33,376 nt of DNA, taken from NCBI GenBank assembly GCA_029262255.1, contig JAJCZT010000057.1, positions 1-33,376 of the forward strand, in the 5' to 3' direction. The translations under genes were made by a program, and so were the position numbers. Positions 1-5,546 of this stretch are shown here, one piece after another (position 1 is the first letter of the stretch; each line of letters opens with the position of its first letter). The DNA is from Deltaproteobacteria bacterium (GTDB lineage: Bacteria > Desulfobacterota_D > UBA1144 > Nemesobacterales > UBA2774). Under the pieces are notes generated by a model that did not search any database, had not been told where the DNA came from, and worked only from the letters and a program-made list of their open reading frames with translations.

Positions 1-365
1 TCTACATAGGCACGCCTCTTAGTAGGGTGTACTTTCACAGACTTCATGCCTGAGAGATCAATCATTAATCCGCCATCAGAGACAGCGTTACCCGCAATGT
101 TATGTCCCGCACCCTTAATAGACAAAAGGATGTTATTGTCGCGCGCGAAATTAACCGCCTGCACAACATCACTGGTTCCGGCGCACTGCACAATAAGACC
201 GGGTTTTTTGTCGACCATCGCATTCCAAATCGACCGTGCCTCGTCATATCCCGGGTCCCCGTTAAGCAGTACTTGGCCCTTGACTGCGGCTTTCAGTTCT
301 TCGACAGGATCTGAGGTAATATTCCCCACATCTCCATCTAAAGTGGTAACTTCGATATTAGACAT
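1..365 (-). CDS. FAD-binding oxidoreductase (berberine-bridge-enzyme-like), 5' part only
   Basis: This is the N-terminal 121 codons of a gene that runs off the left edge; it has no stop in the window and so is missing from the ORF track. I translated it by hand: it begins MSNIEVTTLDGDVG and contains VVQAVNFARDNNILLSIKGAGHNIAG at about residues 67-92. That is the PCMH-type FAD-binding fold of the BBE-like family. The His at about residue 88 in GAGHNIAG sits where family members attach FAD through 8-alpha-histidyl linkage. The start at 365 is preceded by GGAGG with a 5-nt gap; an in-frame ATG 12 nt upstream overlaps that Shine-Dalgarno and is less likely. It has its own promoter (416-444) and lies downstream of, but well separated from, the propeller lipoprotein gene. 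The substrate cannot be told from this half; the second flavin-linking Cys would lie outside the window. Confidence 0.85.
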   Translation of the reverse strand, partial: MSNIEVTTLDGDVGNITSDPVEELKAAVKGQVLLNGDPGYDEARSIWNAMVDKKPGLIVQCAGTSDVVQAVNFARDNNILLSIKGAGHNIAGNAVSDGGLMIDLSGMKSVKVHPTKRRAYV

Positions 366-415
366 AATTCCCTCCATAGTGAATAGATTAATTAGGTTTA
401 CCAATCCCAATTTTT

Positions 416-444
416 ATCATATAACATAATTGGATATATCTCAA
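416..444 (-). promoter_or_regulatory. Sigma70-type promoter for the flavin oxidoreductase
   Basis: On the minus strand TTGAGA is followed after 17 nt by TATGAT, each 5/6 to consensus. Transcription would start near 409, about 45 nt upstream of the chosen ATG. It lies in the 146-bp gap after the lipoprotein gene. Confidence 0.6.
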
Positions 445-511
445 TATGTTTTGTAGACTGCACTGCTCCCCGCCATTTCTGTAGGATTTCTAAAGTAATT
501 ACGTAGACAAA

Positions 512-2635
512 TTATTGTTGCGGAGGACCGATTAACGGGGTCCGAACCGGCTTTGCCAATCCAATAAACACAACAAGTTCATGACCGCCCGGGTTTTGTT
601 GTACAGCGAAAATCTCCCAGTTATTAGTTAGCCAAACATTTCCCGAAGGGTCGATCTGCACCCCGGTATTGCGTTTCAAACCGTCAAAGAAATAACCGCC
701 GTCTGGTGAAATGGGGTCTCCGGTCTCAAAACCGGGCGGGCAGTTCTCTTGAGCCGCACCGCATATCTGAGACACCGCACTGCCCTGGAAGTTCGCCACC
801 CACACATTGTCATTGCCGTCCACGGCTATCCCCCATGGGATCAGAAGACCGCCTCCTTTAAATGGCCCGATAGGTGTCCCGTCAGGTTCGATCATAGTGA
901 CTGAGGCATTAACGCCAGTGAAATTCGGATCCTCTGTTAGAACTATTATATCAAATAGTGTAGGGACTGTTGAACCGTCACACGGGATTTGAATTTCGCC
1001 GGAGTTAGAGACCCAAACGTTTCCGAGGGTATCGCTAGCTATGCCCATTGGCAGGAAAATCCCGGCATCGCTTGCGAGATCTCCAGTAACCGTCCGGATC
1101 AGGTTGCCGTCTTTATCAAAAGCAATAACGCTGTTACTTTCATTCCCGGTAACCCATGCATTCCCATCAACATCGATTGCAATATCAAACGGTTTTATTA
1201 CAAGAGAATTATCCATGTCGTCAAGCGGCTGCAATTTAAATGCCTGATTCGGATTACCCTTCGGGAACTGTGTCACGCTGTCGGTGCTACAACTGGCAAT
1301 CCAGATATTTCCATCTCTGTCTGATACGGTACCTTGCGGTTGCCTGAGAGTGTTTCCAGCCCCTTGAAAACCGCCGTGATCCTCTCCTATTTCGTTCCCC
1401 TGACTGTTTGGTGAAATAGGCGTGCCGTCAGATGCAAATTTTGAGACGGTCTGAGACAATTCTTCTATACTAAAAGGACAATTCGTACCCTGAAAACCGA
1501 AGTTGCCTACCCAGACATTTCCGTCCGGATCAAGCGTGATGCCGTAACCGGCGCCATATAGTCCGCCTCCCTGATAGGGCGCACCGGGAAAATCTTCACC
1601 CGTCGGCGTGAACTTAAGCAGGTGATCGTCCCCGCATACCCTGCCCTCAGGATCAAGGGGGTCTAATTGAAAGACGTAGTTGTTGCAAACCCAGGCGTTT
1701 CCATCCTTATCAAAAGCTATATTGCCCGGTCCATCGAGCTCTGAGCCGTTCCCCTGATATCTCAGCGCAAGCGTCCATGCGGTGAGCCCCGCGTCTGAAG
1801 TTAGCGCAGGCTCGTAAAGTATTTGCTCTTGTGACAATGCAAAAAGCTCTGTTACATTCTGCCAGGGGAAGTGGGCGATATTCACAGCAGCCCGAAGTGT
1901 ATTAACGGGTATAAACCCCTCAGGGGGAGTTGCCAGCTCAAACAGAGAATCGCAATTGCTTTCCGTACGGACGCAGGAGGCCAGCATGTTGGCAAGGGAA
2001 TTCAAAGTAGCGCGAGTCGAAGTGCTCCCCCCATTTGGAAAACTGTCGAGCACCCCTCCGATACCTCCGTTTGAAAGATCAACCAGATTCTGGGCGATTG
2101 CGGCTGCGTTCTGGAGGCCCGGATATGTTCCATCGATTCCACTTGGGGTAAAGAACTGAGCCATTGTGTAGGCTACAGCTACTGTTGTCCTCTCGTTGAT
2201 GACAATCTCGGACTCTACAGGCAACTGACCAAGGACTGTGGCAAGTTGAATAAGAGTTAAATTAGGCAAGTCTATGCGCTGGGAAAAATTAAGTAAATCC
2301 CTGTCTGCGGTAAGATACAAAACAGCGTTGGGATCTGACGGAGCAGTGTAGGAAATGCTGAAGAAACCGCTTGAATCACTTAGTGCACTACCCAATATCT
2401 CAACTCCCCGCACCGTTCCCGTTCTGTAAAGAGTTACCGTGGATAATTCGATAGGTTGAGTATCGCTCAAAACAAAACCGCTTATCTTCTCTGAGTTATC
2501 ATCTTCTGAGCAAGACAATAGAAGCCCCAAGGTTAGCAGAACAAACAACAGGGAAAATCGCAGGATTGACCGTTGAAAAGAACCAAAGATAAGAAAAGTT
2601 GCTACAAATAATGAGAGTCTATTTTTAATCATCAT
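512..2635 (-). CDS. Exported lipoprotein with Ig-like domain and seven-bladed NHL/Vgb-type beta-propeller
   Basis: 707 residues. The N-terminus is hydrophobic and ends in LGLLLSC, a lipobox with the lipidated Cys at 42, so it is probably anchored in the periplasm or outer membrane; the signal is unusually long. Residues 50-112 resemble a carboxypeptidase-regulatory/Ig-like domain (ISGFVLSDTQPIELSTVTLY). Residues 120-265 are mixed and unassigned, with two Cys (221, 228). From about 305 onward seven repeats of the form D-x-x-G-N-x-W-V-x-N occur (DKDGNAWVCNN, DPDGNVWVGNF, DRDGNIWIASC and four more), as expected for a seven-bladed streptogramin-lyase/NHL/SMP-30-like propeller. Function is unknown; such proteins are binding scaffolds or lyases, and no catalytic residue can be named here. 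GAGG lies just before the ATG. Apparently monocistronic. Confidence 0.82.
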   Translation of the reverse strand: MMIKNRLSLFVATFLIFGSFQRSILRFSLLFVLLTLGLLLSCSEDDNSEKISGFVLSDTQPIELSTVTLYRTGTVRGVEILGSALSDSSGFFSISYTAPSDPNAVLYLTADRDLLNFSQRIDLPNLTLIQLATVLGQLPVESEIVINERTTVAVAYTMAQFFTPSGIDGTYPGLQNAAAIAQNLVDLSNGGIGGVLDSFPNGGSTSTRATLNSLANMLASCVRTESNCDSLFELATPPEGFIPVNTLRAAVNIAHFPWQNVTELFALSQEQILYEPALTSDAGLTAWTLALRYQGNGSELDGPGNIAFDKDGNAWVCNNYVFQLDPLDPEGRVCGDDHLLKFTPTGEDFPGAPYQGGGLYGAGYGITLDPDGNVWVGNFGFQGTNCPFSIEELSQTVSKFASDGTPISPNSQGNEIGEDHGGFQGAGNTLRQPQGTVSDRDGNIWIASCSTDSVTQFPKGNPNQAFKLQPLDDMDNSLVIKPFDIAIDVDGNAWVTGNESNSVIAFDKDGNLIRTVTGDLASDAGIFLPMGIASDTLGNVWVSNSGEIQIPCDGSTVPTLFDIIVLTEDPNFTGVNASVTMIEPDGTPIGPFKGGGLLIPWGIAVDGNDNVWVANFQGSAVSQICGAAQENCPPGFETGDPISPDGGYFFDGLKRNTGVQIDPSGNVWLTNNWEIFAVQQNPGGHELVVFIGLAKPVRTPLIGPPQQ

Positions 2636-2679
2636 CTTACATCCTCTTTAAATGGTATATTTGTGAATTGGTTAGCAAA

Positions 2680-2709
2680 ATCCTATCACAAGTTCGAAAT
2701 ATATTTCAA
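2680..2709 (-). promoter_or_regulatory. Possible promoter for the propeller lipoprotein
   Basis: Minus strand TTGAAA, 18-nt spacer, TAGGAT. The -35 is good and the -10 is 4/6. It lies 45-75 nt upstream of the ATG at 2635. Assigned by eye only. Confidence 0.35.
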
Positions 2710-2905
2710 GAGTGCATAAAAGAACACTTGTTCGGTATTTTTTGAGTTAGAACTAAACTATAAGCTGTCTATTACGTTGAATTTAACACGTTACAATTTC
2801 CACAATTTATAGATATTATAACGATCTCTTACAAAAACCCCACCAAATCCATAATAACTTATATAGACCACTCTGATGTCGGTTTTAAAGACTTTGTGTT
2901 TTCTA

Positions 2906-2955
2906 AAAGAAGGGATAAAAATTAGTGGTATTGTGACCACATCGTAAGGGTGATG
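2906..2955 (+). repeat. Direct repeat copy 1 flanking the IPTL-CTERM gene
   Basis: Fifty bases starting aaagaagggataaaaattag, identical at 49 of 50 positions to 4477-4526. Weaker similarity continues on both sides (for example ATTAACT then GAA..TT.TTG on the right), so the full unit may be about 100-120 bp. In this copy the right arm of the hairpin seen in copy 2 has diverged: GATG is followed by cactctat instead of tggtcacaat. Confidence 0.85.
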
Positions 2956-3008
2956 CACTCTATATTAACTGGCTGGAATTATTGACTATTTGTCCTACTA
3001 CATATTAC

Positions 3009-3058
3009 AAAAAAGGGAGCTTGATGCCTATAGTTTTTTGAAATTTTATACTGCTCCC
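3009..3058 (-). terminator. Orphan terminator-like hairpin, leftward
   Basis: Read on the minus strand, GGGAGC and GCTCCC arms are separated by 32 nt and followed by TTTTTTGT. The arm plus T-tract (GCTCCCTTTTTTGT) is the same as in the terminator at 4412-4433, but inverted. No minus-strand gene lies upstream for it to serve, and the loop is too long for an efficient terminator, so it may be a displaced or interrupted copy. Confidence 0.35.
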
Positions 3059-3236
3059 CATTAAGAAGCTAGTAGAGTTAAGCTAGTAAAAACTCAATAC
3101 GGGTACCTTCATTCTGCACATGGGTACCGCATACCGATTCAGGTGGAAGAGGAATATTGCAAAAATCGTGCTTCATATTTAAACGCTGTTGGAATAAAAG
3201 GGTGCTGAAAATAATCTATAAAATATTTTTCAATTA

Positions 3237-3245
3237 TGATATAAT
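3237..3245 (+). promoter_or_regulatory. Extended -10 promoter for the YVTN/IPTL gene
   Basis: TGATATAAT is a perfect TATAAT with the extended TGn element. No good -35 lies 16-18 nt upstream. Transcription would start near 3252, giving a leader of about 48 nt. Confidence 0.45.
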
Positions 3246-3299
3246 GTTTTAAGTTAGTGATAAATACGGCCTAGCATTTGTCTTTAATGGGGGATAGAC

Positions 3300-4379
3300 A
3301 TGAGAAATTACCTTTTAGTCTCAATATTAGTTCTAGGTTTTGCTACGTCAGCGCTAGCACAGCCCATTGCCTACATCGGGGGACGGGACGAAAACATAAT
3401 TTCTGTAATAAATGTTTCCACGAATCAAGTGATTTCGATATTCGAATCCCCGTTACCAGGTTCCCTGGAAGGTTCAACCGTATCTCCTGACAATAAATTC
3501 ATTTACTATACAGGAAACGGAGCAATTATTAAGATCGACACATCCAATAACAGTATTGTAAACCAGACAACCCTACCCAATAATACGTTCGCAATACAGA
3601 TATCCCCGGACGGCAACACTCTTTATACCGCTGACGTATTAGCGAACACAGTTACCGTGCTAAACGCCGTGGATCTGTCGGTTATCACTACCATACCCGT
3701 AGACACCAATCCCCAGGCAATCACCATCACACCTAACGGAAGCAAAGTATATACCGCGAATCTTAACAACGCCTCGGTCTCGATAATCGATACAGCCACA
3801 AATACACTTATTACGACAATCAACCCTCCGGGGGCATCAGGTACGCGCGGTATCTGCGCACACCCGGGTGGGCAGTTTGTGTATGTCGCAAACGCCTTTA
3901 GCAATAATATCTCTGTGATAGACACGGCAATAGACACCGTCGTAGATACAATCGCATTAGGAAACTCGGTTAACAGCATTGCGTTCACTCCAGACGGCGC
4001 CTTTGCCTATACAGCTAACGGTACTGATCAAAGCTCCTCAGTTATTCGAATTTCAGATAATACCGTTGTTGATACTATAGACAACGGAGGTCAATCACTC
4101 GCATGGGGTGTGGATGTAACACCTGACGGGGAGTTTGTATATGTAACCAATGTACTTTCCGACTCTGTAAGCGTGATGAGAACGTCGGATAATACCCTTA
4201 TCGATGTAATAACCCAGAAGATATTCGACGGTCCGATTGCAAGAGGGAGGTTCATTGTCAACGCTCCTCCACCACAATTCCAAATACCTACACTCAGTTG
4301 GTGGGGTCTCCTAGCTATGGCGGGAATTTTGGGCATAGTAGGATTTATGGTTATGAGAAGAAGGAAAGTAACTGCTTAA
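3300..4379 (+). CDS. Secreted YVTN-family beta-propeller protein with IPTL-CTERM sorting signal
   Basis: 359 residues. A Sec signal peptide (MRNYLLVSILVLGFATSALAQP) is followed by repeated units such as SPDGNTLYTADVLANTVTVLN and TPNGSKVYTANLNNASVSIID. This is the YVTN/YncE-like pattern of a seven-bladed propeller. The last 31 residues are IPTLSWWGLL, a hydrophobic helix and the basic tail MRRRKVTA. That is the IPTL-CTERM tripartite signal, related to PEP-CTERM and taken to direct exosortase-like sorting to the surface or extracellular matrix. No exosortase-like gene is in this window. GGGGG precedes the ATG. The gene stands alone between direct repeats (2906 and 4477), and a strong terminator follows. 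The propeller may bind partners; no enzyme activity is evident. Confidence 0.88.
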   Translation: MRNYLLVSILVLGFATSALAQPIAYIGGRDENIISVINVSTNQVISIFESPLPGSLEGSTVSPDNKFIYYTGNGAIIKIDTSNNSIVNQTTLPNNTFAIQISPDGNTLYTADVLANTVTVLNAVDLSVITTIPVDTNPQAITITPNGSKVYTANLNNASVSIIDTATNTLITTINPPGASGTRGICAHPGGQFVYVANAFSNNISVIDTAIDTVVDTIALGNSVNSIAFTPDGAFAYTANGTDQSSSVIRISDNTVVDTIDNGGQSLAWGVDVTPDGEFVYVTNVLSDSVSVMRTSDNTLIDVITQKIFDGPIARGRFIVNAPPPQFQIPTLSWWGLLAMAGILGIVGFMVMRRRKVTA

Positions 4380-4411
4380 ATCTAAAAATACTTCAATTTA
4401 AATACTTCAAG

Positions 4412-4433
4412 GGGAGCTTCGGCTCCCTTTTTT
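4412..4433 (+). terminator. Rho-independent terminator of the YVTN/IPTL gene
   Basis: GGGAGC-TTCG-GCTCCC followed by six T. A textbook UUCG tetraloop hairpin 32 nt after the stop codon. Confidence 0.9.
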
Positions 4434-4476
4434 GTTAAACTCGATTTAAGCTTCTATATGTTTTCCTAACACTAGT

Positions 4477-4526
4477 AAAGAAGGGATAAAAATTAGTGGT
4501 ATTGTGACCACATCTTAAGGGTGATG
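4477..4526 (+). repeat. Direct repeat copy 2 flanking the IPTL-CTERM gene
   Basis: 49/50 identical to 2906-2955 and in the same orientation, 1,571 bp apart. It lies between the terminator of the YVTN gene and the stop codon of the convergent methyltransferase gene. Confidence 0.85.
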
Positions 4527-4536
4527 TGGTCACAAT
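4501..4536. repeat. Perfect 14-bp inverted repeat (hairpin) within copy 2
   Basis: attgtgaccacatc, an 8-nt loop (ttaagggt), then gatgtggtcacaat: all 14 arm positions pair. No T-tract follows on either strand, so it is not a standard terminator. It could be a recombination or protein-binding site, a REP-like element, or an RNA 3' stabiliser for the methyltransferase transcript. Confidence 0.75.
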
Positions 4537-4557
4537 TAACTTGTAGAAATTGTTGGC

Positions 4558-5409
4558 TTATTTTTTTGCCATAATAAACCAGGTACTCGAAGGAAGATAC
4601 ACGCCGTCTGCTCTTTCATGTTTTTTAAATGAACTCTCCATATCCTCACGAATTGTAGGGAGTTTCTCCTGTCCAAGCTCCGCAGCTTCCCGGATTATTT
4701 CCCCTGAAGGGCCGACTAATATTTGAAAGTCTATCGCTTCCTCCATGCTGGTACCTATAGGTATATCCGCATCGTTTCGTTCAAAGAGCACAATATTCTC
4801 AAATCCCGCCGCATTCATCATCGCCCTGGTAGTTTCTTCATCCGCTAATGCAAAAGGACCCGGGCCGCAGGTTTGCGCGCTTTCACCCGGAGGCGGCAGA
4901 TGTTTCAATGCAATGTCTTTTCCCATGCCCCAGCACGGATTATCGGCTATTGTTCTCCAGACAATCATGCATAGCTTACCGCCGGGTTTTAGCGTTTTAT
5001 GGGCGTTTTTGAGGGCGTAAACAATATTTTGGAAAAACATTACTCCAAAGCGCGAATAAACTACGTCGTAGTAATTCTCAGGGAGCTCGTAAGTTTGGGC
5101 ATCGCCCAGAACAAACTTTACATTCTCAAGCCCGGCTTCATCTCTCTCCTTATTGGCTATATCTAAAAATGCCTGGGTGCAATCAAGTCCTAATACCTCA
5201 CCCTCAGGGCCAACTAGTCTGCCGATATCAAGGCACGTTTCACCATAGCCGCAGCCTATATCCAAGACCTTGTCGCCCGGTTGAATTTGAAAGTAAGCAT
5301 GCGCCATTCCACTATGCACAGCTCCGTTTCCGGATAGTATATGACGAAACGTATTCCATTTTGGAACTAGTATTTCATTCCAACAGTTAATAAAATCATT
5401 ATTGTCCAT
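4558..5409 (-). CDS. Class I SAM-dependent methyltransferase
   Basis: 283 residues from the chosen ATG. The ORF-track start at 5427 is a TTG inside the Shine-Dalgarno (GGAGGGAG), so the ATG at 5409 is preferred. The Rossmann methyltransferase core is clear: motif I VLDIGCGYGETCLDIG at about residues 47-62, an acidic loop (LGLDCTQAFLDIA), motif II-like FVLGDAQTYELPENYYDVVYSRFGVMFF and motif III-like LKPGGKLCMIVWR. It resembles UbiE/Methyltransf_11/25 proteins that act on small molecules. The substrate cannot be assigned. The gene is convergent with the YVTN propeller gene and divergent from the exported protein at 5619. Repeat copy 2 ends just past its stop codon. Confidence 0.82.
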   Translation of the reverse strand: MDNNDFINCWNEILVPKWNTFRHILSGNGAVHSGMAHAYFQIQPGDKVLDIGCGYGETCLDIGRLVGPEGEVLGLDCTQAFLDIANKERDEAGLENVKFVLGDAQTYELPENYYDVVYSRFGVMFFQNIVYALKNAHKTLKPGGKLCMIVWRTIADNPCWGMGKDIALKHLPPPGESAQTCGPGPFALADEETTRAMMNAAGFENIVLFERNDADIPIGTSMEEAIDFQILVGPSGEIIREAAELGQEKLPTIREDMESSFKKHERADGVYLPSSTWFIMAKK

Positions 5410-5441
5410 TATTGTTTCTCCCTCCAATTATTATAGATTAT

Positions 5442-5470
5442 ATATCAATCTATTGTGACCCTTTTGTCAA
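5442..5470 (-). promoter_or_regulatory. Likely promoter of the methyltransferase gene
   Basis: A perfect TTGACA on the minus strand with TGATAT 17 nt downstream; a better TATAAT lies at 22 nt. The spacer contains GGTCACAAT, the same 9-mer that forms the arm of the hairpin at 4501-4536. Confidence 0.45.
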
Positions 5471-5546
5471 GATGCTTTTGATAGCTTAATTCTACAAGCT
5501 TCTTAAGGGGGAGCGGTATAGTTCTCATATCTTAATACAGTCTTCA

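Follow-up and report, generated by a model that had tools for sequence, protein, structure and literature searches.

Two near-identical direct repeats of 50 bp enclose a single surface-protein gene in a 33,376-nt stretch of contig JAJCZT010000057.1 (hereafter "the window"). Do they delimit a mobile or recombination-excisable unit carrying one gene, as the initial annotation proposed, or do they belong to something more widely distributed? The genome of origin (G000) is a 2.1-Mb Candidatus Dadabacteria MAG (187 contigs, 93% complete), and Candidatus Dadabacteria is also the label of most MAGs in which the closest relatives of the methyltransferase are encoded.

The propeller gene and its flanking repeats

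A repeat search of the window confirmed that positions 2906–2955 and 4477–4526 match in the same orientation at 49/50 positions (sole mismatch G2944/T4515). The match widens to 82 nt at 84% identity. A 23-nt core pattern matched twice in the window vs 0 times in 100 dinucleotide shuffles, even with 3 mismatches, and the window holds no further copy, as had been claimed. Copy B also contains a perfect palindrome, with fold z-scores of −5.4 (RNA, + strand) and −6.5 (− strand), vs +0.4 and −0.5 for copy A, which lacks the stem. This palindrome, present in copy B only, resembles a quasipalindrome corrected to a perfect one.

The enclosed gene was likewise borne out as a YVTN/IPTL-CTERM propeller with its own terminator (Table 1). 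Both the YVTN repeat (TIGR02276, 108 bits) and the IPTL-CTERM tail (TIGR04174, 27.5 bits for a cut-off of 20.5; PF18203 also matched) exceeded curated cut-offs. The interval 4391–4558, which ends at the methyltransferase stop codon, consists of this terminator and copy B, the right end of copy B overlapping that stop codon. The cognate exosortase XrtH is encoded in the same genome, along with seven IPTL-CTERM genes above cut-off, the propeller included. Like other IPTL-CTERM/exosortase H substrates, the propeller is an ordinary surface protein of a genome with XrtH, with nothing unusual about it except the two repeats that surround it. None of the other six IPTL-CTERM genes in this genome had a copy nearby. 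One copy (G003:C1) adjoins an IPTL-CTERM gene and another (C85:560) comes after a sub-threshold IPTL-CTERM remnant; despite these, an IPTL-CTERM-specific element was rejected on account of the six genes without a copy.

Table 1. Mapped features at the left end of the window
Feature	Position	Strand	Evidence
FAD-oxidase gene, 5' part	1..377	-	tblastn, G004 FAD478 residues 1-125 at window 377-3, 94% identity
NHL-repeat protein, 707 aa	512..2635	-	Pfam NHL; synteny
Dispersed repeat copy A, core 2906-2955	2902..3014	+	Sequence model R1, E=1.2e-28; direct repeat D1
Second dispersed repeat (TACTGCTCCCC type), left inverted arm	3047..3091	+	Inverted repeat I1; other genome copies; G004 homology
YVTN beta-propeller protein with IPTL-CTERM sorting tail, 359 aa	3300..4379	+	TIGR02276, TIGR04174, PF18203
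Intrinsic terminator of propeller gene	4409..4430	+	Terminator scan: 9-bp stem, 4-nt loop, T tail
Dispersed repeat copy B, core 4477-4526	4471..4579	+	Sequence model R1, E=3.1e-24; direct repeat D1
Perfect 14-bp stem, 8-nt loop (ATTGTGACCACATC/GATGTGGTCACAAT), within copy B	4501..4536	+	Strand folding
SAM methyltransferase	4558..5427	-	Pfam Methyltransf_25
Second dispersed repeat, right inverted arm	5476..5520	-	Inverted repeat I1; on synteny break before orf176
Right edge of lineage-specific block, mapped	5489..5530	.	Methyltransferase homology stops at 5488; conserved synteny from 5517-5530

A family of dispersed, modular repeats

Both repeats turned out to be members of a larger family with a core of ~110 nt, the 50 bp being its best-conserved part. 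Seven clear copies were found in the genome by DNA search, and a sequence model (R1) built from 13 copies yielded 11 matches there, nine of them outside the window. Beyond this genome, R1 picked up matches in congeners and in genus g5, which belongs to the same family, with weaker ones at greater distance; copies in genera g1 and g5 also lie beside unrelated genes. Neighboring genes include those for an OprB porin, a FAD oxidase, CorA, a ChlI-like protein, a bifunctional nuclease (BFN), TetR, PNPOx, DUF1254 and more, with no function in common. The initial annotation had allowed that its 50-bp unit might prove to be widespread in intergenic DNA next to genes of unrelated kinds, or its locus fixed in relatives: the genome-wide search bore out the former, and the latter does not apply (see below).

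The copies are MITE-like in being short, non-coding, multicopy and intergenic. They end raggedly, and neither transposon ends nor target duplications were found at them, including a 240-nt double unit common to C21 and G004:C19 that has no evident target duplication. A phage or plasmid origin was rejected after zero matches in IMG/VR (two exact patterns), PLSDB and INPHARED. A structured RNA was also rejected: RNAalifold returned no consensus base pair over 13 copies, Rfam gave nothing above gathering score in 2600–4700 and no relevant family, and the strong hairpin of copy B was not seen as a feature of the repeat family. A coding remnant was rejected as well, the in-frame reading of copy A being interrupted by stops in other copies (by eye).

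The family is built from two modules, ~57 nt on the left and ~50 nt on the right, to which longer common flanks are sometimes added. These modules are separable and occur in varying combinations, as in BOX-type elements, with right-only copies as well as left-only copies, which often adjoin the stop codon of a neighboring gene. Pairwise identities of the left (50 nt) and right (~40 nt) halves were uncorrelated over 13 copies (r = −0.11): copies A and B are 0.98 identical in the left half vs 0.59 in the right, and copy A and C85:560 are 0.50 identical in the left half vs 0.90 in the right. Because the two halves vary independently, the 49/50 patch represents an identical half, not a duplicated element. 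A recent duplication of the whole repeat was rejected, copies A and B being no closer outside the 50-nt patch than unrelated copies. In addition, synteny or homology breaks off sharply within the element or at its edge in several places: C85:23484 and G006:C65 have 415 nt in common, with homology stopping at model position 1; G006:C214 and G001:C72 share 93% identity over 251 nt, with homology stopping at model position 37; and C159 and C85:560 are 86% identical over 220 nt, starting from model position 58. A mosaic of other repeats also occurs after genes, with CCTGAATCGAGTTCAGGGTGACG, CCTAACCCCCCTTTTTCTAAGGGGG and GGGGAGCTTCGGCTCCC terminators (86% identity, L107:400-619 vs L105:3423-3642).

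The placement of copies is biased with respect to genes. Copies tend to be reversed and just past a stop codon, with the next co-directional gene 100–270 nt downstream; most copies have their right side facing the stop codon of an opposing gene, i.e., they lie reversed between two co-directional genes. Neighboring copies on the same contig were co-oriented in 11/11 cases, two of these pairs (C21 and G004:C19) being homologous, and copies clustered above chance, with three neighboring pairs within 2 kb in the G000 genome (simulated P about 0.00025). The gene-relative orientation bias accounts for part of the shared orientation; it does not explain the clustering.

Among known systems, the family can be compared to the BOX elements of Streptococcus pneumoniae (PMC3049150), likewise small intergenic repeats with separable modules and unrelated neighbors, although here there is no tandem boxB-like array, no conserved RNA fold and only about 11 copies per genome. 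The MITE-like ERIC, YPAL and RU-3 units of enterobacteria (PMC2759123) are similarly non-coding, roughly 100–170 nt long and present at many intergenic sites, but no terminal inverted repeats, TA target duplications or long conserved hairpin were evident in the present family. REP/RAYT palindromes share the extragenic placement and, for copy B alone, the perfect hairpin, yet no palindrome is conserved across this family.

A lineage-specific, rearranged locus

We next considered the locus itself. Between ~5.5 kb and 24.9 kb, gene order in the window largely follows that of congeners, and left of that collinearity is lost. There, the NHL, propeller and methyltransferase genes each have another context in relatives. 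In five congeners (G002–G006), the NHL gene has a LuxR-type gene on one side and a DprA gene on the other, and the methyltransferase belongs in G004 and G006 to a FAD-oxidase/MFS/methyltransferase operon; the repeat is absent at these methyltransferase and NHL loci. The G004 propeller (G004:C12) shares DNA with the window over 3047–4390 only, the 50-bp repeats lying outside, and its neighbors are an AhpD-like and a DUF2092-like gene (named by reading the proteins). Neither repeat stands alongside it, only a right half in opposite orientation. Two of these genes are damaged, each in one congener: the NHL gene of G006 is truncated, with residues 528–707 left beside DprA (L070:1385-2359, G006:C82), and a frameshift near residue 264 splits the orthologue of the propeller in G004 (L103:1311-2398).

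In G003 and G004, orf176 directly follows a glycosyltransferase gene, representing an empty site for the block. In the G000 genome, MFS follows the same glycosyltransferase at the end of contig C27, and the window opens inside the FAD-oxidase gene (an ORF at 46–429 on the + strand is antisense to the latter). Linking C27 to the window across the contig gap, we infer the order glycosyltransferase–MFS–FAD–NHL–propeller–methyltransferase–orf176. This block would be a circular permutation of the G004/G006 FAD–MFS–methyltransferase operon with the NHL and propeller genes added; window 1–5530 and G000:C27:1-983 look as if a circle had been opened between the MFS and methyltransferase genes, the contig gap, expected to span about 1.4 kb of MFS and FAD-oxidase sequence, being unsequenced. 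A different gene set of ~8.6 kb occupies the site ahead of the MBL-fold gene in G002 (L219, G002:C8:73500-86000), and the site may therefore be an insertion hot spot.

The right edge of the block could be mapped, with homology to relatives starting at 5517 (G004), 5521 (G001) or 5530 (G003), i.e., about 0.9 kb away from the 50-bp repeat. Copies A and B occupy the NHL/propeller and propeller/methyltransferase joints, and the orf176 joint carries the right arm of another dispersed repeat in place of a 50-bp one. This second repeat runs TACTGCTCCCC...TTAAGAAGC and has other copies at G000:C28, C184, C111, C17 and C133 and at G001:C37. Its two arms in the window form an inverted pair (45 nt, 87%) that encloses the propeller and methyltransferase genes, its left arm beginning at 3047, where the DNA common to the window and the G004 propeller locus starts. 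In G001, a 193-nt copy of this second repeat takes the position of the missing orf176. Across the window, copies of the 50-bp family lie at 2/4 non-syntenic vs 0/about 20 syntenic junctions (P about 0.02), a weak, suggestive link between copies and synteny breaks.

Overall, the locus is lineage-specific and rearranged, giving the earlier suspicion of mobility a real basis, and what moved was a larger unit than the propeller alone. What stands of the proposed one-gene cassette is thus the variability of the locus and its empty site in G003 and G004; a one-gene unit delimited and moved by the 50-bp repeats is not supported, given an edge that lies elsewhere and a family that is dispersed. A site with one repeat and no propeller was sought in congeners and none was found: the known empty site has no repeat and has other edges.

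Explanations for the repeats

With a probability of roughly three in four, we interpret copies A and B as BOX/MITE-like dispersed modular repeats located at rearrangement joints, the propeller being an ordinary gene that lies between two of them. In this lineage, the NHL, propeller and methyltransferase genes were united from separate contexts and inserted between the glycosyltransferase gene and orf176. Repeat copies may have provided passive homology that aided ectopic recombination, or may be marks left at repair joints, and the 49/50 patch could stem from a short gene-conversion tract between copies 1.6 kb apart. Insertion alone, however, does not predict the observed clustering or the 11/11 co-orientation.

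Direct excision of the propeller is possible, and the hypothesis of an excisable cassette, in which the propeller and one repeat entered or could leave through direct-repeat recombination, leaving methyltransferase–repeat–NHL, has several observations in its favor. The repeats are direct and match at 49/50 positions, the G004 propeller is found in another context, and excision would yield the commonest layout of the family (gene stop, reversed repeat, next gene). On C85, moreover, a 200-aa gene lies between two co-oriented left modules, and the same upstream gene is followed in G006 by a single module; the outer flank of that C85 locus (BFN site, C85 vs G006:C65) is, however, not shared with G006. 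We nevertheless consider this hypothesis unlikely, since the mapped edge of the block falls outside the repeat, the G004 propeller has neither repeat, six other IPTL-CTERM genes lack one, and beyond their left halves the copies are merely 59% alike. An integron-like array, with the repeats serving as attC-type sites of an integron integrase, would similarly account for directly oriented, clustered copies with single genes in between, and integron cassettes resemble this arrangement in places. Yet 0/14 genomes exceeded the TIGR02249 cut-off (the G000 genome being a 93% complete MAG), matches remained at the level of ordinary Xer-like recombinases, as in all 14 control genomes, RYYYAAC/GTTRRRY boxes were not seen in the copies read, no fold is conserved over 13 copies, and the copies are scattered among ordinary chromosomal genes on both strands. 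The missing integrase and attC boxes largely refute this explanation, to which we assign a very small probability.

Selection on a regulatory element without any mobility, i.e., a 3'-end or promoter-proximal motif, would fit the bias in placement past stop codons and upstream of the next gene, as well as positions kept in two species each, beside BFN in one case and upstream of a TetR gene in the other. Set against this, neighboring genes have no function in common, modules recombine freely, and the methyltransferase and NHL loci of congeners lack the repeat, making such a role improbable. An assembly artefact, with contigs mis-joined through repeats, comes to mind for a MAG of 187 contigs with repeats at joints, but seems scarcely credible when two independent contigs agree on one insertion, C27 ending in glycosyltransferase–MFS and the window running from FAD-oxidase to orf176. 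A more speculative option, on which we would place only slim odds, is that an unrecognised Candidatus Dadabacteria recombination system acts on the repeat and swaps single genes, with co-oriented copies on either side of unrelated genes, halves reshuffled near the middle, between model positions 37 and 58, and multi-locus blocks turning up at new sites, circularly permuted as if via a circle.

Taken together, these results describe an apparently unreported family of small repeats in an uncultivated phylum, and tie this family to the reshuffling of surface-protein genes among closely related species. If the repeats merely mark joints, this would reflect ordinary genome plasticity; if a recombinase does work on them, they would represent a new route of gene exchange.
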